Made by a program: the position numbers and the translations under genes. This document shows positions 2,004 through 17,601 of a stretch of DNA of 64,000 nt, one piece after another (position 1 is the stretch's first letter; every line of letters begins with the position of its first letter). The notes beneath the pieces were generated by a model, which saw only the letters and a program-made list of their open reading frames with translations, searched no databases and had not been told where the DNA came from. Source of the stretch: Myxococcus dinghuensis (GTDB taxonomy: Bacteria; Myxococcota; Myxococcia; Myxococcales; Myxococcaceae); NCBI RefSeq assembly GCF_024198235.1, contig NZ_JAKCFB010000005.1, positions 124,001-188,000 of the forward strand, in the 5' to 3' direction.

Positions 2004-3539
2004 ATGGCGAACCAGGACTGGGTGTCGCGCCTGCTCTCCGGGCGCGCGTCGGTGGACAAGGGGCTGAACGTCCACCTCTCCGAGCGTGACGGCGGCAGCC
2101 TCCACGACAAGATGCGGCAGGCGTACTGGTGGATCACCAACAACGCCGTCATCTGCCCCTACTACGACATCGAGTTCGGCTCGTCCGCCGCGCTCAAGAA
2201 CTCCGCCGGGGACGAGCTGCACCTGCCCGAGGACATGAGCTACAGCTCGTTCGTCCTCATCCCCCTGCTCACCCTCTTCACCTGCCGGCGCGCGCTGCTC
2301 ATCGGCGGGCCGGGGCGCGGGAAGACGACGTCCGCCATCCTCATGGCCCTGCTGTCCGGCATGAGCCGCGAGGACATCCACCGCTCCATCCAGCGCGGCC
2401 ACCCCCAGCTGTCCATCGCGGACCTGCTCGGCGCGCCGCTGCCCTCCGACATGCTCAAGGCGGAGGACCTGTCCGCCGTGAAGGTGAGCTGGCGCAAGTG
2501 GATCACCCAACGGGTGAAGATCATCGACGAGTACAACCGCATCCCCACCAAGACGCAGTCCGCGCTCCTGTCCCTCATGGCCGAGGGCTACGCGGAGATG
2601 ATGGACCAGTACGTCTACGCGGGGCGCTCGTCCTGGTTCCTCACCGCCAACGACGACCAGGGCGGCGGCACCTTCCAGGTCATCGAGGCGCTCAAGGACC
2701 GGCTCGACGTCGTGGTGCGCGCCGTGCCCTTCAACTCGAACTTCATCGACACGCTGCTCCAGCGCATCGAGGCGGACAAGTCACCCGAGGAGCTGCTGCC
2801 GAAGGAGATCGTCTTCACGCCGGGCGAGCTGGAGCGCGCCTACGCCTCCATCCTGGAGGTGGAGGTGCCGCGCGACGTGCTGGAGCGGGTGGCCTTCTTC
2901 CTGGGGCAGCTCGACTTCTGCCGCATGGCCTCGCCGCGCTTCGAGTTCAAGCACAAGGACACGCTGAAGCTGGCCGGGCAGAGCGTGGCGGCGGTGTGCA
3001 ACGAGCAGTGCCCGCTCGACAAGAAGGTCCACCTCTGCACGCAGACGGAGAACGGCGTCAGCGTGCGCGCCTACCAGACCATCCTCCACTACGCGAAGGC
3101 GCTGGCCTTCTTCCGGGGCCGCACCGTGGTGGAGCTGGAGGACTTCCGGCAGATCGCCCCCTGGGTGCTGCACGAGAAGCTCGTCCCCAACACGCGCAGC
3201 GCGTTCTTCGAGGCGAAGAACCACCGGCTGCTGCTCCAGGACCGCGTGGCGTGGATCCGCAACATGTTCGACATGGCGATGCGCCACCACGACCAGCACG
3301 TGCCCGTGCGCCGCAAGGTGGCGGTGCTGCGCGCGGAGCTGGACAAGGGCCTGTCCGGCATCGACCTGCGCACCACGGAGAAGCGCCTGGCCTCCGTCAC
3401 CGCGCTGATGAACGAGCTGCTCACGAAGCAGGAGCTGTCCGGTCCCACCTACGAGGACCTCATCCACCTCAAGTCCATGTACAGCCGCTACCGCAACTAC
3501 GCGACGTGGCTGAAGGACAACCCGGGAGGCACGCCGTGA
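2004..3539 (+). CDS. MoxR-type AAA+ ATPase
   Basis: A 511-residue ATPase. Walker A GGPGRGKTT lies at 101-109, Walker B is KIIDEYNR at about 172-179, and a sensor-1-like TAN follows at 214-216. The N-terminal 95 residues and the C-terminal 200 (charged, helical, with EKRLASVTALMNELL) are specific to this protein. MoxR-type AAA+ proteins usually act as chaperones or remodelling motors with a von Willebrand factor A partner encoded nearby; here that partner lies two genes downstream. The stop codon overlaps the GTG start of the next gene (GTGA at 3536-3539), which implies translational coupling. Four cysteines at about 325-350 (VAAVCNEQCPL, HLCTQ) could be structural. Cytoplasmic, with no signal peptide or membrane segment. 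Confidence 0.85.
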   Translation: MANQDWVSRLLSGRASVDKGLNVHLSERDGGSLHDKMRQAYWWITNNAVICPYYDIEFGSSAALKNSAGDELHLPEDMSYSSFVLIPLLTLFTCRRALLIGGPGRGKTTSAILMALLSGMSREDIHRSIQRGHPQLSIADLLGAPLPSDMLKAEDLSAVKVSWRKWITQRVKIIDEYNRIPTKTQSALLSLMAEGYAEMMDQYVYAGRSSWFLTANDDQGGGTFQVIEALKDRLDVVVRAVPFNSNFIDTLLQRIEADKSPEELLPKEIVFTPGELERAYASILEVEVPRDVLERVAFFLGQLDFCRMASPRFEFKHKDTLKLAGQSVAAVCNEQCPLDKKVHLCTQTENGVSVRAYQTILHYAKALAFFRGRTVVELEDFRQIAPWVLHEKLVPNTRSAFFEAKNHRLLLQDRVAWIRNMFDMAMRHHDQHVPVRRKVAVLRAELDKGLSGIDLRTTEKRLASVTALMNELLTKQELSGPTYEDLIHLKSMYSRYRNYATWLKDNPGGTP

Positions 3540-4360
3540 GCTTCGCGGACGAGCTGGAGGCCAACGCCCGCGCGCGCTTCGTGCGCTGGAACCCGGACGT
3601 CTGGAAGGAGCTGCTCGCGGGCCCGGCCCCACGGCTGGGCGCGGCGCTGAGCCAGTCCGGCGCGCCCCCGGAGCGCTCCGAGGAGGTGCTGCGCGCGTAC
3701 CTGAACCTGGGCGCGGAGGGCATCGGCCTGGGCTACCTGTACCCGGCGTCCGCGGGCCGGCAGAACTTCTTCACCCTGGCGTGGATGGACCTGGTGCCCC
3801 GGCTGCTCGCGGGCGTGCCCGAGTCCGCGCGCGCCGGCACGCTCGCGCAGCTTTGGAACCTGGGGGAGAACCTGGAGTCCACGCCGCCGTGGGTGCAGCG
3901 CATCTTCCACCGCGTCAGCCAGCGGCTCGACTCGCTGGTGGACATCGAGGAGCGCCTGCGGCGCACGTCCGCGCTGGCCATGGAGCCCCCGGACCGGAAG
4001 CTCGGCGAGCAGGCGAAGCCCGTGCTGGTGGACCTGTCGCGCGAGGACAGCCGCTTCCTGCCCGGCGCGCTGCACTTCCTGTCGCCCGGCGTGCTGTGCG
4101 TGCATGACCGGCACCGCAAGGCCGTGGCCGGACGCGAGGCGGCCACGCAGGGCCTCTTGCTGGCGGACACCGTGCTGCCCCTGGGGAGCATGGGCTGCCG
4201 GGAGGCGCCGGAGGTGACCCACGCGCTGACGCCGCAGTTGTCCGCGGTGGCGTGGAACGACCCGCGCGTGGACACGTGGTTCGCCACCGTGACCAATGAC
4301 TGGCGGGCGGCGGGCACGCTGGACACCTCCCAGCACGTCGTGGTGCTCGTGCCCGCATGA
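3536..4360 (+). CDS. Unknown protein, second gene of the MoxR/vWA operon
   Basis: A 274-residue soluble protein starting at GTG 3536, whose start overlaps the stop of the ATPase; its own end overlaps the next ATG (ATGA at 4357-4360). I recognise no family. It is rich in Leu, Ala and Arg, with predicted helical N-terminal segments (WKELLAGPAPRLGAAL, SEEVLRAYLNLGAEGIGLGY) and a beta-rich C-terminal half ending in HVVVLVPA. No membrane span and few cysteines. Its position between a MoxR ATPase and a vWA protein suggests it is an adaptor or target of that pair; this is inference from context. The GTG start is supported by the overlap pattern shared by all genes of this operon. Confidence 0.8.
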   Translation: MSFADELEANARARFVRWNPDVWKELLAGPAPRLGAALSQSGAPPERSEEVLRAYLNLGAEGIGLGYLYPASAGRQNFFTLAWMDLVPRLLAGVPESARAGTLAQLWNLGENLESTPPWVQRIFHRVSQRLDSLVDIEERLRRTSALAMEPPDRKLGEQAKPVLVDLSREDSRFLPGALHFLSPGVLCVHDRHRKAVAGREAATQGLLLADTVLPLGSMGCREAPEVTHALTPQLSAVAWNDPRVDTWFATVTNDWRAAGTLDTSQHVVVLVPA

Positions 4361-6015
4361 AAGCGTCCGTCTTCACGCCCGAGCACATCGACCGGTGCTG
4401 GCGGGAGGCGCTGGCGCTGTGGGACGTGCAGGTGCGGCTCGGCCCTCCCGAACCCCATGCGCCCTTCCAGCCGGACGCGCCGCACGCGAACGAGCCGCTC
4501 GCGTACATCGACCTGGTGAAGCGGCAGGTCTACGTCCACTTCACGCTGCTGACGTCGATGGGGGCGGAGGACAGCCTGACGGCGGTGCTCGCGCATGAAA
4601 TCGGGCACCACGCGCGCTTCCCGCACACGCTGGGTTGGGACGCGCAGCTCCGGGTCATGGAGCAGCGGCTCATCCCAGGGCTGAAGCAGTCGCTCACCAA
4701 CCTCTTCTACGACCTCCAGGTGAACGAGGTGGTGGGCCGCACGCACGCGGAGGACCTGTGCCGGGTGTACCGCGGCTTCCAGCGCACGGCGAAGCCCGCC
4801 GTGTCGCCGCTGTTCCACTTCTACCTCGCCATCTACGAGGAGCTGTGGGGGCTCCCGCCCGGGGACCTGGTGCCGAAGGCGACGCTGAGGTCCATGGAGG
4901 AGGCGTATCCGGGCACGCGCGCGGAGGCGCGCATGTTCGCGCAGACGTTCTACGCGCTGCCCGACCCGCGCCTCCAGTTCCTCTACTTCTGCGCCGCGTT
5001 CATCCGCTACCTCGAGCGCCCCGACGAGCTGACGTACATGCTCCCCCTGGGGGGCGACGTCCCCATGCCGGACGTAGACGACCTGGACGGGGCGCTCCAG
5101 AGCGGGGGGTTGTGGGAGGAGGCGCTGGAAGAGGCCCGGGCGCGGGACTGGCTGGACGCGGCCGCCGAGGGCAAGGCACAGGACCCGCTGGACGCCATCG
5201 ACCGCATCACCCACCACATGCCGGGGCACGAGAAGGGCCAGGTGCGCCGCGCGCTCGTCTCGCGGCACTACCGACGGCTGGTGGACCAGCACATCCTGCC
5301 GCTGCCGGCCGCGCCGTCGCGTCCGGAGCCGTACCTGCGCACCACGCCCCAGGCGTGGGAGTACGGGGACGACCCGTCCGCCATCGACTGGACGTTGACG
5401 GTGCTGTCGCAGGGACACCTGGCCGCGGTGTCGCCGCTGCGCCGCGAGCTGGAGGCGGACGTGCCGCCGTCCTCGGAGCTGGGCGTGGCGGCGGTGGAGT
5501 TGTACCTGGACACCAGCGGCTCGATGCCCAACCCCGCGCACACGCTCAACAGCATGACGCTGGCCGCGCAGGTGCTGGCCGCGTCCGCGGTGCGCAAGAA
5601 GGCGATGGTGCGCGGCGTCGTCTATTCGAGCGGTCCCCCCCTCGTGTCCCCGTGGATGTACGACGAGGAGACGGCGCGGGACTTCCTGCTGCACTACGTC
5701 GGCGGCGGGACGGACTATCCATTCGAGGTGCTCACCGAGCTGTCGCGGGAGCGGCCGGACGCGCTGCGGGTCATCATCTCCGACAGCGACTTCCTGGCGA
5801 ACGTGGGCAACCCCGAGGACATGCGACGACTGGTGGAGGCCACGCGGCGCTCGCGGCTGGTCGTCGCGCTGCTGGCGCTCCCGGACGAGCGGCGCGCGCG
5901 CCAGGTGCTTCAACCCGCCTTGAAGGAGCGGGGCTTCCGGCTGGTGGTGGTGCAGTGGATGTCGGACTTCGGTCCGGCCGCCGCCGACCTCGCCCGGGCC
6001 CTGTTGGAGAAGTGA
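4357..6015 (+). CDS. Metallopeptidase-like/vWA fusion protein
   Basis: A 552-residue protein in two parts. The N-terminal part has a zincin-type motif AHEIGHH (HEIGH at 80-84) in a VLAHEIGHHARFPHT context, as in zinc metallopeptidases. The C-terminal part is a von Willebrand factor A domain with MIDAS residues LDTSGS (D385, S387, S389), Thr 452 in GGGTDYP, and a final acidic segment VIISDSDF. vWA partners of MoxR ATPases usually recruit or present substrates; here one polypeptide also carries a possible protease centre. It starts at ATG 4357 inside the end of the preceding gene, and its stop TGA shares bases with the next ATG (TGATG at 6013-6017). No signal peptide. I infer an ATPase/vWA/protease machine acting in the cytoplasm; the substrate is unknown. 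Confidence 0.85.
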   Translation: MKASVFTPEHIDRCWREALALWDVQVRLGPPEPHAPFQPDAPHANEPLAYIDLVKRQVYVHFTLLTSMGAEDSLTAVLAHEIGHHARFPHTLGWDAQLRVMEQRLIPGLKQSLTNLFYDLQVNEVVGRTHAEDLCRVYRGFQRTAKPAVSPLFHFYLAIYEELWGLPPGDLVPKATLRSMEEAYPGTRAEARMFAQTFYALPDPRLQFLYFCAAFIRYLERPDELTYMLPLGGDVPMPDVDDLDGALQSGGLWEEALEEARARDWLDAAAEGKAQDPLDAIDRITHHMPGHEKGQVRRALVSRHYRRLVDQHILPLPAAPSRPEPYLRTTPQAWEYGDDPSAIDWTLTVLSQGHLAAVSPLRRELEADVPPSSELGVAAVELYLDTSGSMPNPAHTLNSMTLAAQVLAASAVRKKAMVRGVVYSSGPPLVSPWMYDEETARDFLLHYVGGGTDYPFEVLTELSRERPDALRVIISDSDFLANVGNPEDMRRLVEATRRSRLVVALLALPDERRARQVLQPALKERGFRLVVVQWMSDFGPAAADLARALLEK

Positions 6016-6581
6016 TGGACTTCGACATCAAGCACATCCGGAAGCAGCTCGCCGACACGCCGCTCGTGTCGCCGTATCCACACGACCTCTCGGTGGCCAT
6101 CATCTGCGACACGTTCCGGCTGGCGAACCTCCGTCCACCCTCGCGGCAGGACTGGACGGTCCTGGAACAGCGCGACCGCGGGGCGGGGCTGTGGAAGGAG
6201 CAGGTGATGATGCTCGCCCACCTCCTGACGGCGACGGAGCTGCGCGCCACCACGGCGGCGACGCTGCGCCCGAACATGGACGCCACGACGCTCCTCCAGA
6301 GGTTCTTCACGGAGGTGGAGCCGTTGACGGCGGAGATGATCCGCTCCAACGTCTTCCGGCTGGAGGAGTTCCTGCGCAAGTGGGTCCACGCCGTGGAGGG
6401 ACGGGTGAAGGACGAGGCGCCCCAGCAGTCCGCCGCGCGGCTGAAGCAGCTCGACTACCGCACGGCGCTGCAGGAGATGCAGCGCGCGGACGAGGCCCGG
6501 AAGCAGGAGGTCGAGCGGCGGAAGCAGGAGCTCCAGGAGGCGGCCCTCCGCGCCACCGAGGCGCGCGGCTGGCGGGAGTGA
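6015..6581 (+). CDS. Unknown protein with charged coiled-coil C-terminus
   Basis: A 188-residue protein. The first 135 residues are a helical region (MDFDIKHIRKQLADTPLVS, then WKEQVMMLAHLLTATELRA). The last 50 are a highly charged helix (ALQEMQRADEARKQEVERRK), likely a coiled coil for oligomerisation or partner binding. I recognise no family. It starts at ATG 6015, one base inside the preceding stop, and ends in a GTGA overlap with the next gene. The tight coupling suggests a subunit or adaptor of the same complex; no enzymatic motif is visible. Confidence 0.8.
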   Translation: MDFDIKHIRKQLADTPLVSPYPHDLSVAIICDTFRLANLRPPSRQDWTVLEQRDRGAGLWKEQVMMLAHLLTATELRATTAATLRPNMDATTLLQRFFTEVEPLTAEMIRSNVFRLEEFLRKWVHAVEGRVKDEAPQQSAARLKQLDYRTALQEMQRADEARKQEVERRKQELQEAALRATEARGWRE

Positions 6582-7900
6582 CGGGAGCGCTCTCCGTGGA
6601 CGCGCGCGTGGCGCCGCGCGCGAACATCCGCCGGGACACGGCCTCGCAGCGCCCACACGTCCCGTGGGCGGAGTCCATCGCAGCGGGCCTGTCGCGGCTG
6701 GCGGCGGTGCCCCGCGAGGACGAGGCCCGCGCGCTCCTGGACGCCCGGCTGGAGTGGCTGCGGGGCGCGCTGCTCGCGTCGCCGTACTACGTGCGCCGGC
6801 TCCAGCAGGTGGGGCTCCACCCGGGCGACCTGCAATCGCTCCAGGACCTGCGGCACTTCCCGACGCTGGAGAGGACCGGGCTCGCGCTGCACTGGGGTGA
6901 GGTGTCGGCGCTCCCCTCCGAGGACGAGGGGTGCGTGGTGGTGAGGAGCTCCGGCTCGACGGGGGAGCCGGTGCGGGTGGTGAGGGACCGGCGCGACTGC
7001 CTGCACATGTGGGCCGTGCTGCGCTTCTGGCTGGAGCGGGCGGAGGTGGCGCTGCCCCCGCGTCCCCGCGTGGTGCTGCTGGACGCGCTGCCGGGAGGGC
7101 TGGAGTACTCGGTGCGCCTGCCCATCCTCCAGGACGGGGCGTTGCATCGCGTCTCCGTCCTGCGGGGTGACGCGCGTGAGCGCCTGCGCCGCGTCTCGCC
7201 CACGGTGGTCTTCTCCGATCCAGAGGGGCTGCGCTGGTGGGCGGAGCAGGACGGCCTGCCGGTGCCGGGGCTCGTGTTGAGCTCGGCGCAGCACCTGTCG
7301 GAGGCGCTGCGCGAGCGGCTGGCGCGGGTGCTCCCGGTGCCGGTGCTCAACTACTACGCGACGACGGAGACGGGGCCGCTGGCGTGGGAGTGTTTCCGGT
7401 CCACGGGCCACTTCCACGTGCTCGCGCCCGACGTGTGGCTGGAGCCGGACCAGGACGAGGTGGTGGTGACGCGGCTCCGGCCGAGCGTGTTGCCGTTGCT
7501 GCGCTACCGACCGGCGGACGCGGGGACGGTGCGCAGGGATGCGTGCGCATGTGGCTTCCAGGGCTGGACGCTCGAGGGCTTCGGTGGCCGTGGCGCCTGC
7601 GGGTTCACCACGCCCACGGGGCGGAGCGTGGATGCGTGGGCGCTCGCGTGGGTGTTCAAGCACCACGCGCTCCGGGCCTTCCGGTTGACGCAGCTCGCGC
7701 CCACGCACTTCGAGCTGGAGCTGGTGGACGCCACGGAGCCGGGTCCTCTCCGTGAGCGGCTCACCGGGGCGCTGCGCAACCTGGGGTGGAGCGACGCGCC
7801 ACGCCTCGACGTGCGCGCCGTGAGCGGCGACAGCCTCGTCACCGGCACCAAGCCCCTGCCGTTCCGCACACGAATCCCGCGCGAGGGCAATCACACATGA
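6578..7900 (+). CDS. Phenylacetate-CoA-ligase-like adenylating enzyme
   Basis: A 440-residue member of the adenylate-forming family, closest in layout to PaaK. The phosphate-binding loop is VVRSSGSTGEPVRV (about 122-135), followed by a PaaK-like YYATTETGPLAWEC segment and a C-terminal CGFQGW region with two nearby cysteines. Family members activate a carboxylate as acyl-AMP and pass it to CoA or another acceptor; the acid used here cannot be read from the sequence. GTG 6578 is chosen because it overlaps the preceding stop (GTGA), as at the other junctions; later GTG codons at 6596 and 6608 are alternatives. Its presence in a MoxR/vWA operon is unexpected and suggests that an acyl or aminoacyl modification is part of the system. 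Confidence 0.82.
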   Translation: MTGALSVDARVAPRANIRRDTASQRPHVPWAESIAAGLSRLAAVPREDEARALLDARLEWLRGALLASPYYVRRLQQVGLHPGDLQSLQDLRHFPTLERTGLALHWGEVSALPSEDEGCVVVRSSGSTGEPVRVVRDRRDCLHMWAVLRFWLERAEVALPPRPRVVLLDALPGGLEYSVRLPILQDGALHRVSVLRGDARERLRRVSPTVVFSDPEGLRWWAEQDGLPVPGLVLSSAQHLSEALRERLARVLPVPVLNYYATTETGPLAWECFRSTGHFHVLAPDVWLEPDQDEVVVTRLRPSVLPLLRYRPADAGTVRRDACACGFQGWTLEGFGGRGACGFTTPTGRSVDAWALAWVFKHHALRAFRLTQLAPTHFELELVDATEPGPLRERLTGALRNLGWSDAPRLDVRAVSGDSLVTGTKPLPFRTRIPREGNHT

Positions 7901-8211: not shown

Positions 8212-10401
8212 TTGCGCACGCACTCCTCCCCGGTGGCCACCGCCCCTTCGCCAGACACCACCGTCCGGCCCCTGCTGTCGTCCACCTCCCCGGGGCCGCG
8301 CGTCGCCCCGGACCCGAGGCGGTTCTGGCATTCCCTCCAGAAGTCGTGGGCCGGCCGCTACGGCATCGCGCTGCTGGGCCTGCTGGTGGCCTTCTTCCTC
8401 CAATCCCAGTTGCTGCCCTTCATGTCGTCCGGGCCCTTCCTCTTCTTCTACGGCGCCGTCATGGTCGCCGGCTGGTGGGGAGGCTGGGGCCCCGCGCTGC
8501 TCGTCACCGCCCTGTCCGTCGCGGTGGTGGACACACACTTCCTCCCTCCGCGCCTCTCCATCCAGATGCGCTCCGCGGACATCCTGGCGCTCAGCGTCTT
8601 CGGCCTGCTGGCCGTCTTCATCACCAAGCTCAACGTCACGCTCACCCACGCGCTCGCCGAACGCGCCGCGCTGCTGGAGCGCGAGCACCAGGCCCACGCC
8701 GCCGCGGAGGATGCCCGCTCCCGCCTGCACACCATCTTCATGCAGGCCCCCGCGCAGATCTTCTTCCTGCGCGGCCCCACCCACGCGTTCGACTTCTCCA
8801 ACGCGCAGAACAGCATCCTGCTCAAGCAGCAGGACGCCCCGGGCATGACGCTGCGCGAGGGCATGCTCAAGGTGGGAGACCAGGACGTGCGCGGCGTGCT
8901 CGACCGCGTCTACGCCACCGGCGAATCCTTCCTGGGATGCGCCGTGGCCCTGCGCATCCCCCAGTCCGACGGCACGGAGAAGGAGGCCTTCTACAACCTC
9001 ACCTACCAGCCCACCCGCGACGACCGCGGCCACGTGGAGGGCATCGCCGGCTTCGGCTTCGAGGTCACCGACCTGGTCCACGCCCGCCAGCGCGCGGAGG
9101 CGCTCGCCACGGAGCTGCGGCAAGCGGAGTTCCGCACCCGCGTGCTCGCGGAGGTCAGCACCGTGCTCGCCTCGTCACTCGACCACGAGACGACGCTGCG
9201 CAACCTGGCGAAGCTGGTGGTGCCCGCGCTCGCGGACTGGTGCTTCGTGGACCTGGCCGAACCCAACGGCGCCTTCCGCCGCCTGGAGGTGGCGCACGCG
9301 CGCCCCGAGGACGCCCCCGTGGCCGCCGAGGTCATCAACTTCAACCTCATGCCCGAGGGCAACCCCCGCCACCCGCCCACCGCCGCGCTGCTGAGGGGCG
9401 AGGCCATCCTCTTCGAGGAGATGACGCCCGCGCACATCAAGCGCAGCGCCCACAACGAGAACCACGCCCGCGTCATGCTGGCCACCGGCCTGCGCTCCTT
9501 CATCGCCGTGCCCCTCGTCGTGCGCGGCCACACGCTCGGCGTGTTCAGCTTCTTCACCTCCTTCTCCAACCGCCGCTACACGCAGGCGGACCTCGCCTTC
9601 GGCCTGGAGCTGGCCTACCGCGCGGCGCTCTCCATGGAGAACGCCCGGCTGTACCGGGAGGCCCAGGAGGCCATCCGCCTGCGCGACGAGTTCCTCTCCA
9701 TCGCCAGCCACGAGCTGAAGACGCCGCTCACCCCGCTGAGCCTCAAGCTCCAGGCGCTCGCCCGCGAGCTGGAGCGCCACCCGGACACCATCCCCTACTC
9801 CGTCGTGAAGGGGTACGTGGACACCGGCGCCCGGCAGGTGAAGAAGCTGGCGGAGCTGGTGGGCGACCTGCTCGACGTGTCCCGCATCGCGGCGGGCCGG
9901 CTCGCGCTGGAGCTGGAGGACGTGGACCTGGGCGAGCTGCTGCGCGAGGTGGCGCAGCGGTACGAGCCCCACGCCGCGCGCGCCGGCTCCGTCCTCCAGA
10001 TAGAGGGCGGGGAGACGGCGCTGGTGGGCCGGTGGGACCGCCTCCGCCTGGAGCAGGTGGTCACCAACCTCATCGACAACGCGGTGAAGTACGGCGCGGG
10101 CAAGCCCATCACGCTGACGCTGGAGCAGGGCCCCACGCGCGCGCGCCTGCGGGTCCGGGACCAGGGCATCGGCATCGCGCCGGAGCACCTGCCCCGCCTC
10201 TTCGGCCGCTTCGAGCGCGCCGTGTCGGAACGGCACTACGGCGGCCTGGGCCTGGGGCTCTACATCACCCGGACGCTCGTGGAGGCCATGGGGGGCCGGG
10301 TCCGCGTGGAGAGCGAGCAGGGCCGGGGCTCCACCTTCACCGTGGATCTCCCCCGCGAGCACGCGCTTCCGGTTGACGTGCAGGCCCTTCCCTCGCAGTA
10401 A
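8212..10401 (+). CDS. Membrane sensor histidine kinase (DUF4118-PAS-GAF)
   Basis: A 729-residue sensor kinase. Residues about 48-145 hold several hydrophobic segments of the KdpD-like DUF4118 type (YGIALLGLLVAFFLQ, MVAGWWGGWGPALLVTAL), followed by a helical linker, a PAS-like region (about 170-290) and a GAF domain (about 310-480). The HisKA H-box is SHELKTPLTP with phospho-acceptor His 500. The HATPase domain has NLIDNAVKYG (N-box), DQGIGIAPE (G1) and GGLGLGLYI (G2). The kinase should autophosphorylate and pass phosphate to a response regulator, but none is encoded next to it, so it is an orphan kinase. The start was chosen upstream of the membrane segments; a weak RBS leaves it uncertain by a few codons. 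Confidence 0.88.
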   Translation: MRTHSSPVATAPSPDTTVRPLLSSTSPGPRVAPDPRRFWHSLQKSWAGRYGIALLGLLVAFFLQSQLLPFMSSGPFLFFYGAVMVAGWWGGWGPALLVTALSVAVVDTHFLPPRLSIQMRSADILALSVFGLLAVFITKLNVTLTHALAERAALLEREHQAHAAAEDARSRLHTIFMQAPAQIFFLRGPTHAFDFSNAQNSILLKQQDAPGMTLREGMLKVGDQDVRGVLDRVYATGESFLGCAVALRIPQSDGTEKEAFYNLTYQPTRDDRGHVEGIAGFGFEVTDLVHARQRAEALATELRQAEFRTRVLAEVSTVLASSLDHETTLRNLAKLVVPALADWCFVDLAEPNGAFRRLEVAHARPEDAPVAAEVINFNLMPEGNPRHPPTAALLRGEAILFEEMTPAHIKRSAHNENHARVMLATGLRSFIAVPLVVRGHTLGVFSFFTSFSNRRYTQADLAFGLELAYRAALSMENARLYREAQEAIRLRDEFLSIASHELKTPLTPLSLKLQALARELERHPDTIPYSVVKGYVDTGARQVKKLAELVGDLLDVSRIAAGRLALELEDVDLGELLREVAQRYEPHAARAGSVLQIEGGETALVGRWDRLRLEQVVTNLIDNAVKYGAGKPITLTLEQGPTRARLRVRDQGIGIAPEHLPRLFGRFERAVSERHYGGLGLGLYITRTLVEAMGGRVRVESEQGRGSTFTVDLPREHALPVDVQALPSQ

Positions 10402-10455: not shown

Positions 10456-11457
10456 ATGGAGACACGGACGCTCGGGAAGCAGGGACTGAAGGTATCCGCG
10501 ATGGGGCTCGGCTGCATGGGCATGTCCGACTTCTACGCGGGCCGGGACGACGTGGAGTCGGAGGCCACGCTGCTGCACGCCGTGGAGCGGGGCGTCACCT
10601 TCTTCGACACCGCGGACATGTACGGCGCCGGAAGGAACGAGGAGCTGGTGGGGCGCGTGCTCGGGCCGCACCGCGCGAAGCTGGTGCTGGCGACGAAGTT
10701 CGGCATCCGCCGCGACCCGAACAACCCCAACGCGCGCACCATCGACGCCACGCCGGCGTACGCGAAGCAGGCGGTGGAGGCGAGCCTGAAGCGGCTGGGC
10801 GTGGACGTCATCGACCTGTACTACCTGCACCGCATGGACGGGAAGACGCCCATCGAGGACACGGTGGGCGCGATGGCGGACCTGGTGCGCGAGGGCAAGG
10901 TGCGCCACCTGGGCCTGTCGGAGGTGGACGGGGACACGCTGCGCCGCGCCTCCAAGGTGCACCCCATCGCCGCGCTCCAGAGCGAGTACTCGCTGTGGAG
11001 CCGCGACCCGGAGGATGGCGTGCTGGAGGCATGCCGCGAGCTGGGCATCGGCTTCGTGCCCTACAGCCCGCTGGGGCGCGGCTTCCTGACGGGGCAGCTC
11101 AAACGCTTCGAGGACCTGGAGGCCGACGACTACCGCCGTCACTCCCCGCGCTTCCAGGGTGAGAACTTCACGCGCAACCTGGCGCTGGTGGGCCACGTGG
11201 AGCGGCTGGCGAAGGAGAAGGGCTGCTCGCCGGCGCAACTGGCGCTCGCGTGGGTGATGGCGCGCGGCCAGGACCTCGTCCCCATCCCGGGCACCAAGCG
11301 CCGCAAGTACCTGGACGAGAACCTGGGCGCGCTCGACGTGAAGCTCACGGCGAAGGACCTGGCGGACATCGAGGCCGTGGCGCCTCCGGGCGTCGCCGTG
11401 GGGGACCGCTATCCCGCGGCCGCGCAGAGCACGCTGCCGAAGTCCGGCAAGCGCTGA
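10456..11457 (+). CDS. Aldo/keto reductase
   Basis: A 333-residue NAD(P)H-dependent oxidoreductase of the AKR superfamily (TIM barrel). The catalytic tetrad is visible: Asp 51 and Tyr 56 in [11 protein letters not shown], Lys 81 in LATKFG, His 125 in YYLHRMD. The C-terminal [17 protein letters not shown] segment fits the cofactor phosphate-binding region, suggesting NADPH. Length is normal for the family. RBS GAGGAGGGG lies about 10 bases before ATG 10456; an ATG at 10448 is out of frame. Substrate unknown; such enzymes reduce aldehydes and ketones in detoxification or metabolism. The gene ends 1 base before the convergent radical SAM gene. Confidence 0.9.
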
Positions 11458-11458
11458 G

Positions 11459-12247
11459 TCAGGCGCGGTCCCGAGCCAGCTGCGCGTGCGGCAGCCACGC
11501 GCCGCTGGCCCCCAGGCAGTAGCGGCAGGTGGCCAGCGGCGTGTCCGCCTCGAGGTAGGCGAGCATCCGCTCCAGCAGCTCCGGCGCGTCGAGCCGCACG
11601 CCGTCCACGTCTCCCAGCCCGCGCAGCTCCGGGTGCGTGGGCCCGAGCACGGTGGCGACGTGCGGAGGCCGCGTGCACGCGTAGAAGCGCCCCTGGTGGA
11701 CCAGGTGGCAGCGGACCTTGAGCCAGCAGCGCGCGTGGACCTCGCGCGTCACCGCCTCCGTTTCGTGGGGCGCGTCCGGGGACAGTTGCTGGAAGGCGTC
11801 GATGCGCTTGACGGTGAGGTGGATGCGGTGGGCGTCGCAGCGCTCGGTGATGCGGGTGATGGACTTCTCCGGGAGCGGCGCGGACGTGTAGACGGAGAGG
11901 GTCATCCGGTCCAACCGCTCGTAGACCGCGTCCGGGGCGCGCTGGGCGAGGAAGCCGTTGGTGGTGACGGACACCTGCTCGGAGATGCCGGAGGCGCGGA
12001 CGGCGTCGAGCACGGCGGGCAGGTCCGGGTGGAGGAAGGGCTCGCCCCCCGTGAGCTTGAAGACGTTGGGGCGCAGCACGCGGGCCAGGCGCGTCAGGTC
12101 CGCGCCCAGCGCCGAGGGCTCCACCGCCCAGGCCGGCAGGTGGGGCGACATGGGGCAGCACTGCACGCAGCGCAGGTTGCAGTGCGTGACGACATGCGTC
12201 TCCAGGGACCAGGTGAGGATGCGACCGTCGTGCAGCTCGTAATGCAC
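11459..12247 (-). CDS. Radical SAM protein
   Basis: A 262-residue radical SAM enzyme. The cluster-binding motif is CNLRCVQC (Cys 23, 27, 30), followed by TGGEPFLHPDLPAVLDAV, which matches the GGEP SAM-contacting motif. A C-terminal CRYCLG and other cysteines (CWLKVRC, FYACTRP) hint at a shortened SPASM-like auxiliary region. Radical SAM enzymes with such tails often modify peptides, sugars or aminocyclitols. Start GTG 12247 places the motif at the usual distance from the N-terminus; the frame continues upstream without a better start. It is transcribed divergently from an asparagine-synthetase-like gene with 55 bases between the starts, suggesting a shared control region and pathway. Confidence 0.8.
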   Translation of the reverse strand: MHYELHDGRILTWSLETHVVTHCNLRCVQCCPMSPHLPAWAVEPSALGADLTRLARVLRPNVFKLTGGEPFLHPDLPAVLDAVRASGISEQVSVTTNGFLAQRAPDAVYERLDRMTLSVYTSAPLPEKSITRITERCDAHRIHLTVKRIDAFQQLSPDAPHETEAVTREVHARCWLKVRCHLVHQGRFYACTRPPHVATVLGPTHPELRGLGDVDGVRLDAPELLERMLAYLEADTPLATCRYCLGASGAWLPHAQLARDRA

Positions 12248-12302
12248 GAGGAGGACTATAGCGGGGTTGCCCCGGGCCCCAGGGGCTTGAGACAGTCCGC
12301 GC

Positions 12303-13595
12303 GTGTCCTCCCGCCCCGGCGATGCCAGCGGCCCGCTCGCCACCCTGCCCGGCCACCGGCCCACCGGGACGTCCTCGCCCCGCCCCGCCGACTCCGTGTG
12401 GCCGTTGGCGACGGCGCTCGACCCCGACGCGGTGGCGGCCCTGCTGTGCCATGTGCTCCCCGCCGACGCGAGCCTCTTCGGCGGGGTGACGCGCGTCCTC
12501 CCGCCGCTGCCTCGCGTCCGGCGCGCCGCGGAGCCCGCCGACACCGAGGAGGCGCTCGCGCGGCGCCTCCTGGCCTCGCTCACCGAGGCGGTGAGCACAC
12601 GGGTGGCGTCAGGCGTCCATGACGTGAGCCTCAGCGGCGGCGTGGACAGCGCGACCTTGTGCGCCCTCGCCGCGCGCGCGGCGCCGGGCCGCGTGCGTGC
12701 GTGGACCATGGACGTCCACTTCGCGGACGCGCAGGAGCGCCACCACGCGCGGACGGTGGCGCGCGAGGCCGGCGTGGAGCTGGTGGACATCACCATCCCG
12801 GACGACGTGCTCCCGGACCTCTTCGAGCCCGCGGTCGTGAGCAACGAGGGCGTCATCATCAACGCCCGCGCGGTGGCGAGCTTCGCGTTCTACGCGGGCG
12901 CGCGGAGACACGGCGCCACGCGACTGTTGAGCGGCGCGGGCGCGGACGAGGTGCTCCTGGGGAACCCGCGCGCGCTCGGGTCGGCGGCGGCACGCGTCGC
13001 GGAGGACCGTGGACTCGCGCGCGCCGTGCTGCGCCGCCCCCCTGTGGACGACTTGGGGGTGATGCCCTGGGCGGGAGCCCCCGAGGACGCGGCGGTCTCC
13101 GAGGAGGTCCGCCACGCCGCGTGGGTGCTGCGCGAGCTGGTGCTCCCTCCCGAGCTGCGAGGCGCGCGGACGCACGGGCTCACGGTCCACACGCCCTATC
13201 TCGACACCCCGGTCGCGGACGTGGCGCTCGCGCTCCCCGGCGCCTTGCTCACACGGGCGGGCGAGGGCAAGTGGCTCTTCCGTCACGCGGTCCGAGGACT
13301 CGTGCCCGAACCGGTGCGCCTGGCGCGAAAGACGCCTCGCTACGGACACACCGCGCTCTCCAGTCCCGTGCGGGCTCGCTGGCTGGAGCTGTATCGCGCC
13401 TGGCTCTCCCCGGAACGCCTGGAACCCCTGGGGGTGATCGACCCGGGGGCCACGCGCGCGCTCCTGGAACGCTACGCGCGCCTGCCCGTCGAGGCCCCCG
13501 AAGCCGCGGGAGTGGATCGTTTGTTGATGCGGGTGTGTTCCCTGTCCATTCTGCGCGCCCACGCACGGACGCCCCCGCCATGTCCCGAGTCCTGA
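12303..13595 (+). CDS. Asparagine-synthetase-like amidotransferase without glutaminase domain
   Basis: A 430-residue protein holding only the synthetase half of an AsnB-type enzyme. The linker that normally joins the two halves is present (DPDAVAALLCHV, LFGGVTRVLPP, about 40-70). The ATP-pyrophosphatase loop follows (SLSGGVDSA, SGGVDS at 111-116), then LLSGAGADEVLLG (about 212-224) and a C-terminal PVRLARKTPRYGH. The N-terminal glutaminase domain with its catalytic Cys is absent, so free ammonia or another amine would be the nucleophile. Glutaminase-lacking relatives include beta-lactam synthetase-like and lasso-cyclase-like enzymes that make amide bonds in natural products. Start is GTG 12303. 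The next gene begins inside its 3' end (13580). Confidence 0.75.
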   Translation: MSSRPGDASGPLATLPGHRPTGTSSPRPADSVWPLATALDPDAVAALLCHVLPADASLFGGVTRVLPPLPRVRRAAEPADTEEALARRLLASLTEAVSTRVASGVHDVSLSGGVDSATLCALAARAAPGRVRAWTMDVHFADAQERHHARTVAREAGVELVDITIPDDVLPDLFEPAVVSNEGVIINARAVASFAFYAGARRHGATRLLSGAGADEVLLGNPRALGSAAARVAEDRGLARAVLRRPPVDDLGVMPWAGAPEDAAVSEEVRHAAWVLRELVLPPELRGARTHGLTVHTPYLDTPVADVALALPGALLTRAGEGKWLFRHAVRGLVPEPVRLARKTPRYGHTALSSPVRARWLELYRAWLSPERLEPLGVIDPGATRALLERYARLPVEAPEAAGVDRLLMRVCSLSILRAHARTPPPCPES

Positions 13596-14773
13596 TTGCC
13601 ACCTCGCCCGAGAAGGGCCACATCAACCCGATGACGGGCGTCGCGCAGTGGCTGCTCCGGATGGGGCACACCGTGGGCTGGCTGTGCCTGCCCGAGCCCG
13701 CGCCCCAGTTGGCGCGGATGGGCGTGGAGGTGCTCACGCTGCCCCACGTCGCGGCCGAGGCGCCCCCCCTCGAGACGGGCGGCGAGGCGCTGGCGGACCT
13801 GGTGCGCGACGAGGCGGCGCTCGGCGGATGGATTCGTGGGCTGCTGCTGGACGCGGTGCCCTCGCTGCTGGAGCCCGTGCGGCAGGTGGTGCGCGCCTTC
13901 CGTCCGGACGTGATGGCGCTGGATGGGATGCAGTACGCCGCGGTGCTCACCGCGCACCAGGAGCGCATCCCCTGGGCGGGGGTCTCCTCCGCGCTGTCCC
14001 TGCTGGAGCCCATGGAGGACTACGGCCTGCGGCGCAACGTGCGCCTGCTCGCGGAGGACCGGCGGGCCCTCTTCGCGCGCCATGGCTTCGACGCGCGCTT
14101 CCGCAACTGCGAGTGCCTCTCGCCGCGCCTCAACAGCCTCTTCACGACCGAGGCCTTCCTCGGCCCCGACGTGGACCTGCCGCCCGCCACGCACCTGGTG
14201 GGCCCCTCGATTCCGCCGGACGAGCGCGGGGACGAGGTCGACTTCCCGTGGAGCCGGCTCGGCGCGAGGCCCGTGGTGTACGTGTCCTTCGGCAGCCAGA
14301 TTTCATGGCAGCCCGCGCTGTTCCGCACCATCGCCGAGGCCGCCGCCCCGCTGGAGGTGACGGTGGTGCTGAGCGCGGGTGAGCTGGCGGACACGGACTT
14401 CTCGCGCTCGCTGCCCGGCGACGTGGTGGCGGTCCCCTACACCCCGCAGCGACAGCTGCTCCCACGCACGGCGGCCTTCGTCTCGCACGGCGGCGCGAAC
14501 TCGGTGATGGAGGCGATGACGGCCGGCGTCCCCATGCTGCTGCTGCCCGTCTGCAACGACCAGCCCATCCAGGCCCACTTCCTCCAGAAGTCCGGAGCGG
14601 GGCTCGCGCTGGAGCCGGGGAGCCTGACCGTGGAGACGTGTCGCGCGGCGCTCCGTCAGCTCCTCGCCCCCGGGACGCCCCTGCGTCAGAAGGCCTCCGA
14701 CATCTCCCAGTCCTATCGCGCGCGCGATGGAGCGCGGGAGGCGGCGGAGCGCATCGTCGGGCTCGTCTCGTGA
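13580..14773 (+). CDS. MGT/UGT-type glycosyltransferase
   Basis: A 397-residue GT-B glycosyltransferase of the YjiC/macrolide-glycosyltransferase type. The N-terminal acceptor domain begins SRVLIATSPEKGHINPM. The C-terminal nucleotide-sugar site reads VSHGGANSVMEAMTAG followed by GVPMLLLPVCNDQPIQA, the HGG...DQ signature of family 1. Such enzymes move sugar from an NDP-sugar to a small lipophilic acceptor. ATG 13580 overlaps the preceding gene by 16 bases and the stop overlaps the next start (GTGA at 14770-14773), so the three genes form one operon. The acceptor is probably the product of the neighbouring radical SAM and amide-forming enzymes; this is inference. Confidence 0.87.
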   Translation: MSRVLIATSPEKGHINPMTGVAQWLLRMGHTVGWLCLPEPAPQLARMGVEVLTLPHVAAEAPPLETGGEALADLVRDEAALGGWIRGLLLDAVPSLLEPVRQVVRAFRPDVMALDGMQYAAVLTAHQERIPWAGVSSALSLLEPMEDYGLRRNVRLLAEDRRALFARHGFDARFRNCECLSPRLNSLFTTEAFLGPDVDLPPATHLVGPSIPPDERGDEVDFPWSRLGARPVVYVSFGSQISWQPALFRTIAEAAAPLEVTVVLSAGELADTDFSRSLPGDVVAVPYTPQRQLLPRTAAFVSHGGANSVMEAMTAGVPMLLLPVCNDQPIQAHFLQKSGAGLALEPGSLTVETCRAALRQLLAPGTPLRQKASDISQSYRARDGAREAAERIVGLVS

Positions 14774-15639
14774 GTCTCCACACGCACGACTGGAGCCCCC
14801 GGCGATACCGTCCGGCGGGCGTGACGCCGCTGGAGGTGTGGAACCTCCCGGTCCTGGGACACGAGCTGTGGGAGCTGCTCGGGGCGCCGAGCCTGGACGC
14901 GGCGCGCTGGACGGGTGTCCCCGAGGAGCGGCTCGCGAACACGTTGATGCCGCCCCTCGTCGTCGCCCTGGAGACGCTGGCGCGGCGACACGAAGTGGAC
15001 GCCATCTGGCTCAGCGGCGGACTCGCCTGCCTGGAGGACTTCGGTCCGCGGCTCGAGGAGGCCACCGTGGGCCTCGGCCGTCCCGTGCATGTCGCCCCGG
15101 AGCCCCGCTTCGCGCCGGTCCAGGCGGGGCTGCGGGTGCTGGAGCGCGCGGGTGCGCGACGTCCCCTGGCGCTCGACGTGGGACAGACGAGCATCAAGTG
15201 CCGAGGCCTCGGCGGCTCCCACGTCTTCGAGCGGGACATCACGGCGCTGCCGCGCCTGCTCATCGGCGCGCCTCGCCCGGAGGATGGGAGCCACGTCGTC
15301 GCGGCGGTGCGCTTCATCGCGGACGCCCTGCGCGCGAACCTGGCCCCGGACGACTACGTCACGCCCGACGCGCTCTGCCTGGCGCTGCCGTGTCCGCTCG
15401 ACGAGGCCCTGCGGCCCGGGGGCTGCACGTATGGGTGGGAAGGACATGCGTCCCTCGTCCGGGACATCCTGACGGAGGCGGACGTGCTCCCCTCCGGCGT
15501 GGGCGACGTCCTCGTGATGAACGACGCGGAGCTCGCGGCCGAGGCGGCCCGTGAGGACGTGCGGCTGACACACCACCGTCGCATCCTGTGTCTCACGCTG
15601 GGCTTCGGTCCGGGCGGCGCCCTGCTCGAGCGTGTGTGA
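14770..15639 (+). CDS. ASKHA (ROK-like) sugar kinase homolog with permuted motif order
   Basis: A 289-residue protein starting at GTG 14770 within the preceding stop. It contains a phosphate-1 loop LALDVGQTSIKCRGL (about 134-148), a connecting region, and LTLGFGPGGALLERV at the very C-terminus, which resembles the second phosphate motif (LGTGIGGAL). The region resembling the C-terminal adenosine motif of sugar kinases comes before phosphate-1: DAIWLSGGLACLEDFGPRLEEA (about 77-98), then APVQAGLRVLE. In ROK and other ASKHA kinases that element is last. The order therefore suggests a circular permutation; this is my inference. Predicted role: ATP-dependent phosphorylation of a sugar or similar hydroxyl substrate in the same pathway as the adjacent glycosyltransferase. 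Confidence 0.65.
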   Translation: MSLHTHDWSPRRYRPAGVTPLEVWNLPVLGHELWELLGAPSLDAARWTGVPEERLANTLMPPLVVALETLARRHEVDAIWLSGGLACLEDFGPRLEEATVGLGRPVHVAPEPRFAPVQAGLRVLERAGARRPLALDVGQTSIKCRGLGGSHVFERDITALPRLLIGAPRPEDGSHVVAAVRFIADALRANLAPDDYVTPDALCLALPCPLDEALRPGGCTYGWEGHASLVRDILTEADVLPSGVGDVLVMNDAELAAEAAREDVRLTHHRRILCLTLGFGPGGALLERV

Positions 15640-15770: not shown

Positions 15771-16670
15771 ATGTCCACCGACCTCCTCCAATCCCTCTCC
15801 CACTCCCTCGCCTCCGTCGTGGAGCGCGTCGCGCCGAGCGTCGTCCGCATCGAGGCCCGCCGTCGTCGCGGCGCCACCGGCATCGTCTGGAGCACCGAAG
15901 GCCACATCCTCACCACCAGCCACGCCGTCGAGCACGAAGGCTCCATCCAGGTAGGACTCCCCGACGGCCGCACCGTCTCCGCCGAGCTCGTCGGCCGGGA
16001 CGCCAGCACCGACCTCGCGCTGCTGAAGCTCGACCCTTCGGGCCACGCGCCGCTGACGCCCGCGGTGCTGGACGACGTGAAGGTCGGCCACCTCGTCGTC
16101 ACGGTCGCCCGGCCGGGACGCACGGCGCGCGCCACGCTGGGCATGGTGAGCACCCACGGCGAGGGCTGGCGCACCCACGCGGGCGGACGCGTGGACCGCT
16201 ACCTCGAGACGGACGCGGACCTGCCGCCCGGCTTCTCCGGTGGCGCGCTGGTCGACTCCCAGGGGCGCCTCGTCGGCCTGCTCACGGCGGCCTTCTCGCG
16301 CACGGCCGCGGTGGTCATCCCCGTCGACACGTTGACGCGCGTGGCCTCCACGCTGAAGGAGCACGGCGGCATCCGCCGGGGCTACCTGGGCGTGGGGGCG
16401 TATCCCGTGAAGCTGCCTCGTCACCAGTGGGAGGCCGCCGGGACGGAGGCGGGGCTCATCTTCCTCTCCGTGGACCCAGACGGGCCCGCGAGCAAGGCGG
16501 GGCTGGTGTTGGGCGACGTGCTGGTGAGCCTGGGCGGACAGGCGCTGCTCGGCGTGGAGGACCTGTTGGGCTACCTGGGCGACGAGAAGGTGGGCACCAC
16601 CGTCCAGGCCCGCGTGCTGCGCGCCGGTGAGGTGCGCGAAGTGCCCGTCACCATCGGCCGGCGTTCGTGA
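15771..16670 (+). CDS. HtrA-like serine protease with PDZ domain, cytoplasmic form
   Basis: A 299-residue trypsin-fold protease of the S1C/HtrA group. Catalytic triad: His 51 (TTSHAVE), Asp 81 (ASTDLALLKL) and Ser 156 (PPGFSGGAL). The usual GNSGG reads GFSGG; the nucleophile is kept but the oxyanion-loop Asn is replaced by Phe. A PDZ domain occupies about 205-295 (AGLIFLSVDPDGPASKAGLVLGD). There is no signal peptide or membrane anchor, unlike periplasmic DegP/DegS. ATG 15771 is preceded by GAAAGGA; an upstream in-frame ATG at 15723 lacks an RBS. Lies 16 bases before a second HtrA gene, so the two are co-transcribed and may form mixed oligomers. Confidence 0.85.
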   Translation: MSTDLLQSLSHSLASVVERVAPSVVRIEARRRRGATGIVWSTEGHILTTSHAVEHEGSIQVGLPDGRTVSAELVGRDASTDLALLKLDPSGHAPLTPAVLDDVKVGHLVVTVARPGRTARATLGMVSTHGEGWRTHAGGRVDRYLETDADLPPGFSGGALVDSQGRLVGLLTAAFSRTAAVVIPVDTLTRVASTLKEHGGIRRGYLGVGAYPVKLPRHQWEAAGTEAGLIFLSVDPDGPASKAGLVLGDVLVSLGGQALLGVEDLLGYLGDEKVGTTVQARVLRAGEVREVPVTIGRRS

Positions 16671-16686
16671 GGAGCGAGGACACACC

Positions 16687-17601
16687 ATGAAGCTCTTGCA
16701 GCAGTTCTCGGATGATTTGGAGACGCTCGTCTCCCGCGCCTCGCCCGCGGTGGTGGGCGTGGAGCATGCCCGGGGCCATGGCACCGGCCTCTTCCTCACC
16801 CCGGATGGCTACGTCCTCACCAACCGGCACGTGGTGATGCGGGGCTCGCGCAAGCTGACGGTGCAGCTCTCCAATGGGGAGGAGCTGCGGGGCACGCTGG
16901 TGGGCGGAGACGCGCCCACGGACCTCGCCGTCGTCCGCGCCGAGGGCACCGACTTCCCCACGCTGCCCCTGACGGCGCCGGAGACGGTGCGCGTGGGGCA
17001 GCTGGTCATGGCCATCGGGAACCCGTTCCGGTTGGAGCAGTCCGTGGCCATGGGCGTGGTGAGCGCCGTCAACCGCAGCGTCACGTTGCCGGACGGCGTC
17101 ATCCTGGAGGGCATGCTCCAGACGGACGCGGCCATCAACCCGGGCAACTCGGGCGGGCCGCTCATCAACACGCGCGGAGAGGTGGTGGGGCTCAACACGC
17201 TGGTGCTCCCGTATGCCCAGGGCATCGGCTTCGCGGTGAGCGCCACCACGGCGGCCTGGGTGGCCAGCCTGCTCATCCAGCGAGGACGCGTGGAGCGCCG
17301 CTTCCTCGGCATCGCCGCGACGGCGGTGAACCTGGACACGGCGCGGGCGAAGGACGCCGGACAGCCGCGCGCGGTCCGCGTCCTCCACGTCAAGGAGGGG
17401 ACCCCGGCGGACGACGCGGGTCTCCAGCCGGACGACCTGCTGCTGGCCATCAATCAGCGGGCCGTCAGCAGCGTGGACGACCTCCAGCGCTTGATGGCCC
17501 TGGCCACGGACGAAGAGGTCTCGCTGGAGGTGCTGCGCAAGGGTCGCAGGAAGCAGCTCTCCGCCCGCACCCGCCCGCGCCCCGAGTCCTTCGCCGCGTG
17601 A
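16687..17601 (+). CDS. HtrA-like serine protease with PDZ domain
   Basis: A 304-residue HtrA-type protease with an intact triad: His 48 (TNRHVV), Asp 79 (APTDLAVV) and Ser 155 in the canonical NPGNSGGPL. One C-terminal PDZ domain (about 215-295) contains GTPADDAGLQPDDLLLAINQ. No signal peptide or transmembrane segment, so a cytoplasmic protein-quality-control or regulated proteolysis role is more likely than a periplasmic one. RBS GAGGAGCGAGGA lies upstream of ATG 16687. Paralog of the preceding gene, from which it differs in having the standard oxyanion loop. Confidence 0.88.
   Translation: MKLLQQFSDDLETLVSRASPAVVGVEHARGHGTGLFLTPDGYVLTNRHVVMRGSRKLTVQLSNGEELRGTLVGGDAPTDLAVVRAEGTDFPTLPLTAPETVRVGQLVMAIGNPFRLEQSVAMGVVSAVNRSVTLPDGVILEGMLQTDAAINPGNSGGPLINTRGEVVGLNTLVLPYAQGIGFAVSATTAAWVASLLIQRGRVERRFLGIAATAVNLDTARAKDAGQPRAVRVLHVKEGTPADDAGLQPDDLLLAINQRAVSSVDDLQRLMALATDEEVSLEVLRKGRRKQLSARTRPRPESFAA

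Follow-up and report, generated by a model that had tools for sequence, protein, structure and literature searches.

The radical S-adenosylmethionine (SAM) enzyme SpeY acts in the synthesis of spectinomycin and, like BtrN, oxidizes a secondary alcohol to a ketone. The Protein Data Bank (PDB) holds the two under the titles 'Twitch Radical SAM Dehydrogenase SpeY' and 'BtrN in complex with AdoMet and 2-DOIA'. A radical SAM protein also serves as the effector of one of the vWA-MoxR ternary systems, for which the parts of the source drawn on here give VMAP, iSTAND, FtsH and a beta-propeller as third components (eLife 2020, PMC7159879). As regards kinases, families of one fold group may in general be related by circular permutation; no permuted ASKHA kinase is named in the relevant passages of that source (PMC1079889). 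Here we describe a locus of Myxococcus dinghuensis (genome size 10.4 Mb) in which a SpeY-like radical SAM gene stands beside genes for an AsnB-like amide synthetase, a glycosyltransferase (GT) and a putatively permuted ASKHA protein, at positions 11459-15639 of the window, i.e. the whole 64,000-nucleotide stretch analysed (positions 124,001 to 188,000 of contig NZ_JAKCFB010000005.1). The four genes belong to a conserved, apparently undescribed set of about ten genes, whose product is probably a modified sugar compound; searches of the open-access literature turned up no account of the locus.

The four genes, hereafter module B, comprise a 262-aa twitch radical SAM enzyme with SpeY homology (11459..12247, minus strand, GTG start) and, on the plus strand, an AsnB-like synthetase without glutaminase domain (12303..13595), a GT1-type, MGT/YjiC-like GT (13580..14773) and a 289-aa ROK-like ASKHA protein (14770..15639, GTG start), whose start lies inside a longer open reading frame (ORF) listed from 14638. 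A divergent region of 55 bases (12248..12302) separates the first two genes, AsnB and GT overlap by 16 bases and GT and ASKHA by 4, so that inspection of sequence and ORFs agrees with the coordinates, families, overlaps and divergent region as first described. At distant loci the same divergent gap measures 47 bp (L060) or about 26 bp (L063, where the AsnB starts behind the gap figures are approximate).

That these genes belong together follows from their recurrence. A sample of 145 related genomes was searched with the ASKHA, radical SAM and AsnB-like proteins, and with two proteins of a second module introduced below, a PaaK-like ligase and p188 (cut-offs E <= 0.001 for ASKHA, E <= 1e-20 for radical SAM and AsnB-like). 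The ASKHA gene was present in 39 of the 145 and the radical SAM gene in the identical 39; the AsnB-like gene was matched in 37, and the two genomes missing from its match list (G087 and G092) do encode AsnB at full length, in one gene run with ASKHA. The ligase and p188 occurred in 42 and 41 relatives, in each case covering 38 of the 39 with radical SAM and ASKHA, the exception being G092. Measured between lower match coordinates, radical SAM and ASKHA are less than 4 kb apart in 30/39 genomes and at most 16 kb apart on one contig in 38/39. A contig scan with the ASKHA alignment yielded 28 named loci, and AsnB, GT and ASKHA are consecutive on one strand in 27 of them; in L062, GT and ASKHA are about 1 kb apart with another ORF between. 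The radical SAM gene falls inside the flank in 25/28 and outside it in L050 and L054; on two Corallococcus contigs equal to these in length, G070:C42 and G063:C409, it is 15 and 13 kb away. All four genes evolve with a low ratio of nonsynonymous to synonymous substitution (dN/dS against one close relative, G011: radical SAM 0.23, AsnB 0.23, GT 0.27, ASKHA 0.33). Carriers include Myxococcus, Pyxidicoccus, Corallococcus and Citreicoccus; 27 of the 39 belong to one genus, of which all 27 sampled genomes have radical SAM and ASKHA, and these occurrences are not independent events. The weight of the co-conservation therefore rests on distant loci. A wider ASKHA search retained 49 of 195 genomes, 16 of the 65 matching ones having been left out for short, weak matches only (E 1e-6 to 1e-4) that are probably PilM/MreB-like, and searches for viral and for plasmid relatives of this gene found none. 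The original prediction had set the four genes apart as a grouping of enzyme kinds used in specialized metabolism; the presence of radical SAM and ASKHA in the same 39 genomes and the recurrence of the set at distant loci place this grouping beyond chance and establish the four as a conserved unit, against the refuting condition named with the prediction, a lack of co-conservation in every other genome.

A free-standing mini-cluster of four genes, as which the unit had been introduced, is nevertheless too narrow a description, because distant genomes interleave it with a MoxR/VWA module, the ligase and a gene for a PIG-L deacetylase. In two loci from Planctomycetota metagenome-assembled genomes (MAGs), L060 and L066, the order is MoxR, p274, M48/VWA, p188, p206, ligase, radical SAM (opposite strand), AsnB, GT, ASKHA, PIG-L, the largest gap in the run being 47 bp; in L063, from a Myxococcales MAG, it is MoxR, p274, VWA, radical SAM (opposite strand), AsnB, GT, ASKHA, PIG-L, p188, ligase, with gaps of up to about 65 bp. 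L064 carries the second part of the latter order. Of these partners, MoxR, p274, M48/VWA, p188 and the ligase, though not PIG-L, are present in the window at 2004-7900, on the plus strand, as module A, which has p206 as an optional member and starts about 9.5 kb upstream of the four genes: a MoxR-type AAA+ ATPase of 511 aa with AAA_lid_2/AAA_3 domains (2004..3539), whose homologues, 74-75% identical, head the run in L060 and L066; the unnamed conserved protein p274 (3536..4360), unmatched by Pfam at E <= 0.1 in 6/6 members; a 552-aa protein with an M48-like metallopeptidase motif and a VWA-like domain (4357..6015; Peptidase_M48 E 1e-5, VWA_2 E 0.11, under its cut-off), like p274 conserved in L060, L063 and L066; the unnamed conserved 188-aa protein p188 (6015..6581), found between PIG-L and ligase in L063 and L064; and the PaaK-like adenylate-forming ligase (6578..7900), whose best PDB match by profile is the phenylacetate-CoA ligase 4r1l (E 3e-18). 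The ligase gene directly adjoins radical SAM in G040, G087, L060, L065 and L066, and PIG-L adjoins ASKHA in 6/28 loci and in G087 (Pfam E 4e-15). A histidine kinase (8233-10401) and an aldo-keto reductase (10456-11457) lie between the modules in the window; they look like Myxococcaceae additions, since neither is present in L042 and the similarity seen at the distant loci is that of histidine kinases in general (28-32%). No gene for a non-ribosomal peptide synthetase or polyketide synthase was seen beside the four by ORF and family inspection, the sole check, in line with the first description.

Which chemistry could the set perform? A clue comes from the radical SAM protein, which by sequence and predicted structure is a homologue of the twitch dehydrogenase SpeY. 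The window protein matches Pfam Radical_SAM (E 4e-8), and a 16-member profile searched against the PDB (hmmsearch) recovers SpeY (7wzv/7wzx/7x0b) over positions 1-260 at E 6e-56, followed by MoaA at 4e-8 and viperin at 2e-7. Its AlphaFold2 (AF2) model (predicted local distance difference test, pLDDT, 88.6; predicted template-modelling score, pTM, 0.87) superposes on SpeY with a Foldseek E of 7e-25 and a template-modelling (TM) score of 0.88, and in VIA with Z 31.3 and a root-mean-square deviation of 1.9 over 255 residues; the VIA runner-up is BtrN (Z 14.3). The CxxxCxxC motif and C174, C191, C241 and C244 are invariant in 16/16 members and align with SpeY cysteines, some of which, judged from the alignment, would bind a second, auxiliary cluster. 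Given this homology, and by analogy with SpeY, oxidation of a sugar or cyclitol seems likelier than peptide maturation. Two SpeY-like genes on plasmids have GT genes nearby: the one from Streptomyces (35% identical) is also surrounded by epimerase genes and by two for aminotransferases of DegT type, and the other, from Planctomyces, is more distant (30%). A viperin was also considered for this protein and rejected, given the SpeY and viperin E values above and an NCBIfam viperin score of 42 against a cut-off of 180.

The AsnB-like protein matches Asn_synthase (PF00733, E 1e-39), the window copy has no glutaminase domain (with its Cys2), and K323, R327 and K343 are invariant in 18/18 proteins. 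Its profile finds the hydroxyamidotransferase 7ylz, which we take to be TsnB9 (E 4e-20), AsnB 1ct9 (2e-19) and beta-lactam synthetase 1jgt (2e-18) about equally close, so the type of reaction, be it intramolecular amide formation as in a beta-lactam synthetase or that of AsnB, is not fixed by similarity. The glutaminase domain is absent from the aligned Myxococcaceae rows and from L060, and degenerate in L063. Corallococcus AsnB-like proteins of L044, L046 and L051, whose alignment rows are incomplete, contain an insert of repeated VDNL/VDNP motifs. The GT matches UDPGT (E 1e-19) and, under the curated cut-off, MGT (TIGR01426, E 7e-47); by profile, its PDB matches are 8h5d (E 2e-46), 7vm0 (2e-44) and YjiC 6kqw (3e-41).

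The earlier family calls were right for the glutaminase-less AsnB and for the ASKHA protein, although the window form of the latter is matched by neither Pfam nor NCBIfam at E <= 0.1. Sequence profiles and predicted structure together indicate a feature of the ASKHA protein that the first description did not mention: it is circularly permuted, residues 1-129 corresponding to the usual C-terminal part of an ASKHA protein and residues 130-289 to the usual N-terminal part. Its whole-protein profile aligns positions 231-277 with residues 95-141 of PDB 4htl and positions 20-96 with residues 191-267, and likewise 121-275 with 6-150 and 45-96 with 241-293 of 2qm1. When the halves were searched separately against the PDB, the N-half profile (26 sequences) gave 27 rows up to E 1.1, of which 18 were ASKHA proteins, each aligned in roughly the final third of its length (e.g. 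MreB 243-326 of 348, E 1e-4; activase 162-238 of 243, E 0.1), and the C-half profile gave 17 rows up to E 1.7, of which 13 were sugar kinases, all matched within the first 161 residues. Many of these ASKHA rows are individually weak (E up to 1.7), and the other rows, 9/27 (the top two being designed helical repeats at E 2e-7) and 4/17, were set aside as chance.

The claim is carried by a deeper set of ROK proteins (52 loci, 48 usable, 34 diverse proteins at <80% identity). In local hhalign runs against the profile of these 34, the native order aligned in two blocks, 125-287 on columns 36-188 (probability 38) and 50-97 on columns 256-304 (probability 12), and exchanging the halves gave a single alignment of 243 columns with probability 91. 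Over 18 cut points, those at the junction (120, 140 and 160) scored 91-92 locally and 95-96 globally, the other 15 at most 74 and 86, respectively; a first global scan against Myxococcus ROK loci (14 of 20 usable) had given 68-78 at cuts 120-160, compared with 39 in native order and no more than 42 at any of the remaining 15 cuts. HMMER half-profile matches above 5 bits on the ROK set agree, the N-half falling in the C-terminal half in 8/8 and the C-half in the N-terminal half in 5/5. Two results lend no support to a permutation. With the shallow Myxococcus-only ROK set and its groups taken apart (10 and 4 sequences), local probabilities stayed at or below 12.5 with no preferred cut, in a run in which one ordinary ROK group aligned with the other did peak at native order. 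HMMER scores, moreover, were no better after exchange of the halves, in sets of different size (9 exchanged, 16 native): against Pfam, ROK was matched at E <= 1 by 2/9 exchanged (best 0.17) and 6/16 native sequences (best 0.065), and against the PDB, 1woq, 4htl and 2qm1 came at 6e-4, 4e-3 and 0.09 exchanged and at 1e-3, 9e-4 and 3e-3 native, one 4htl stretch of the exchanged search running across the junction. In the AF2 model (pLDDT 92.2, pTM 0.90), our own reading of the DSSP assignments suggests one RNase-H-like domain, complete, at about 132-261 and a second made of two C-terminal strands (271-287) together with about 8-126; full-length, sequential structure matches are weak, with TM by query at most 0.44 among the matches listed and a best Z of 9.7 (Foldseek, VIA), and count neither for nor against the permutation. 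Because the GT gene abuts or overlaps the ASKHA ORF on its upstream side, and PIG-L does likewise downstream in L060 and L063, no missing piece can lie directly beside it. No description of a permuted ASKHA kinase was found in the open-access literature.

Is the protein then a kinase at all? The ROK family carries a cysteine-rich zinc motif, and the alignment of 26 N-halves has no invariant cysteine or histidine that could represent it. Membership of ROK itself was rejected, since the Pfam cut-off (PF00480), the domain order and the zinc motif all disagree, the window protein giving no PF00480 match even at E <= 1; the Pfam model itself works, 103 of 117 genomes having ROK genes over the cut-off, and the window's genome also holds three ordinary ROK genes. 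A reading as a nucleotide switch or activator of another member of the set, in the manner of BadF-type activases, MreB or PilM, could draw on the missing zinc motif and on an N-half profile closer to MreB and activase than to any ROK kinase. In the C-half search, however, every one of the 13 ASKHA rows is a sugar kinase, and the ND pair that occupies the active-site position of ROK does not vary, which makes this reading rather unlikely. D136, G138, T140, K143, N251, D252, G278, G280, G83 and G84 are invariant in 26/26 members, and D136, G138, T140, G278, G280, G83 and G84 represent the phosphate-1, phosphate-2 and adenosine motifs of the superfamily (named as in PMC1079889).

The explanation that we favour, at somewhat better than even confidence, is a sugar-tailoring pathway with module B, joined by the PIG-L deacetylase in loci outside Myxococcaceae, as its core, usually linked to module A. 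Read from the enzyme families, the GT would move a sugar from a nucleoside diphosphate sugar onto an acceptor; PIG-L, where present, would remove an N-acetyl group; the radical SAM enzyme would oxidize a secondary alcohol of the sugar or of a cyclitol to the ketone; the AsnB-like enzyme, the PaaK-like ligase or both would activate carboxylates with ATP for an amide or ester; and the ASKHA protein would phosphorylate a hydroxyl, either priming or masking the product. MoxR and VWA might form a dedicated remodelling machine for one of the pathway enzymes or for the target. Whether myxobacteria and planctomycetes share, in this locus, a MoxR(AAA+)/VWA-coupled pathway of a new class, one that makes a sugar-derived amide or phosphate and includes the first naturally permuted kinase of the ASKHA fold, with the cut in the first strands of the second domain, we regard as an even call.

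Several observations weigh against such a unit. The Myxococcaceae loci have no PIG-L, and a single PIG-L query of the L063 form, run without a positive control, found no match in the window's genome. L061, on a 12-kb contig, has ASKHA without the others. G087 has MoxR to radical SAM on one contig and AsnB-GT-ASKHA-PIG-L on another, so that its radical SAM and ASKHA genes are on separate contigs. G092 has module B with no p188 or ligase match at the cut-offs used, and in L067 and L072 relatives of module A stand near other radical SAM genes; the modules are thus separable, and their linkage, though usual, is not constant. Finally, AsnB keeps its glutaminase domain in L062 and L024, and the amine donor may therefore differ between lineages.

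Around these subjects a few further features were seen. The paralogous MoxR-p274-VWA-p188-p206 core occurs in two genomes of the genus (L067 6676-13050; L072 3834-9297 and 14949-15836), with a different radical SAM gene, of CNLRCPFCF type, beside it, and in G087 a second PaaK-like ligase adjoins a second, distant radical SAM gene (L073 6718-8981). The radical SAM-AsnB gap of Corallococcus holds varied insertions (L021 2909-11919, L022 2604-11776, L027 3181-6883, L034 6429-17191), by eye a RecQ-like helicase, subtilase-like and transposase-like genes and an AbiE-like pair, which suggests an insertion hot spot. A Myxococcus-type locus, running from VWA to ASKHA in the stretch covered, also stands in a record named Comamonas sp. 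KCTC 72670 (L055 10001-10840), probably through mislabelling or contamination of that assembly. In the window, the locus is followed by a tandem pair of trypsin/PDZ (HtrA-like) genes (15771-17601), whose homologues flank 19/21 loci from L039 to L059; farther on, a 999-aa ORF call (46302-49301) opens with a QDAAQPATGAAQ-like repeat in several copies.

The main rival to the sugar-tailoring pathway is a MoxR-vWA conflict or defence system, in which the enzymes, once triggered, would make or release a small sugar or nucleotide effector. The occurrence of MoxR together with vWA genes in the host groups of the ternary systems, myxobacteria and planctomycetes (so far as described in PMC7159879), the match of the radical SAM protein to prokaryotic viperin (pVip) profiles (E 3e-11) and the genes inserted beside radical SAM in Corallococcus could all be read in this way. 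PADLOC, however, left 8/9 proteins without a match, the ninth showing only the viperin similarity, and viperin falls far behind SpeY in the structural comparison too (Z 12 vs 31). Unlike patchy defence genes, radical SAM and ASKHA are present in every sampled genome of the genus with dN/dS well below 1, and the main text of PMC7159879 is without 'asparagine synth', 'M48' or 'DUF2201'. On balance, a conflict system appears quite improbable.

Two further alternatives are very doubtful, and about equally so. The enzymes might mature a ribosomally synthesized and post-translationally modified peptide (RiPP) from an overlooked small gene, radical SAM, AsnB-like cyclase and GT acting on the peptide. 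AsnB-like cyclases and radical SAM maturases are indeed common in RiPP clusters, and the AsnB-like protein resembles macrolactam and lasso cyclases with scores below the cut-offs. The absence of a precursor gene reported originally is, however, confirmed within the three compact loci (L060, L066 and L063), where gaps of at most about 65 bp and a radical SAM protein that is SpeY-like, and not a SPASM peptide maturase, make one hidden inside the locus unlikely; neither a leader peptidase nor a RiPP recognition element (RRE) was recognized, in inspection that included no RRE-specific search. A detoxification cassette, in which GT and kinase inactivate foreign antibiotics and the other enzymes hitch-hike, would suit the matches of the GT to macrolide-inactivating and OleI-type models, yet the GT scores below the curated cut-offs, and the co-conservation with radical SAM, AsnB, ligase and MoxR/VWA would be left unexplained. 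That unrelated neighbours were kept together by chance or slow rearrangement, as the concentration of occurrences within one family might hint, has a negligible probability, being already refuted by the recurrence of the set in Planctomycetota and in further families of Myxococcota and by the shared presence and absence, barring mis-assembly of all those MAG contigs.

Because Myxococcus and Corallococcus can be cultured, the locus offers a compact handle on a pathway that seems to be undescribed, with SpeY-like oxidation as a concrete first chemistry to test instead of a list of enzyme families. The recurrent link between MoxR/VWA and radical SAM genes, seen also in the paralogous locus, makes the targets of such machines testable, and a permuted ASKHA kinase, if true, would be a natural test of how freely an ancient two-domain fold tolerates new chain ends.

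How, then, does the set compare with its closest described relatives? Like the vWA-MoxR ternary systems (as far as PMC7159879 describes them), it has MoxR and vWA genes in the same host groups, and it differs from them in its M48-like domain, unnamed partners and biosynthetic enzymes. The radical SAM protein is homologous to SpeY over its whole length, twitch region included (32% identity), with CxxxCxxC and four further cysteines in common, whereas it has one extra invariant cysteine, C180, and a locus without the spectinomycin-type gene set. Its AsnB-like neighbour shares the ATP-pyrophosphatase synthetase domain of the AsnB superfamily (7ylz, 1ct9, 1jgt) and, in Myxococcaceae, lacks the glutaminase domain; the GT is homologous over its full length to the YjiC/MGT enzymes of GT1 (8h5d, 7vm0, 6kqw) and scores below the curated cut-offs of the macrolide GT models. 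Finally, the ASKHA protein shares with the ROK sugar kinases (4htl, 2qm1, 1woq, 6jdc) phosphate-1, phosphate-2 and adenosine-like motifs and the ND pair, and departs from them in its apparently swapped halves, in DVGQT for the usual DxGGT, in having no zinc motif and in scoring below the ROK cut-off.

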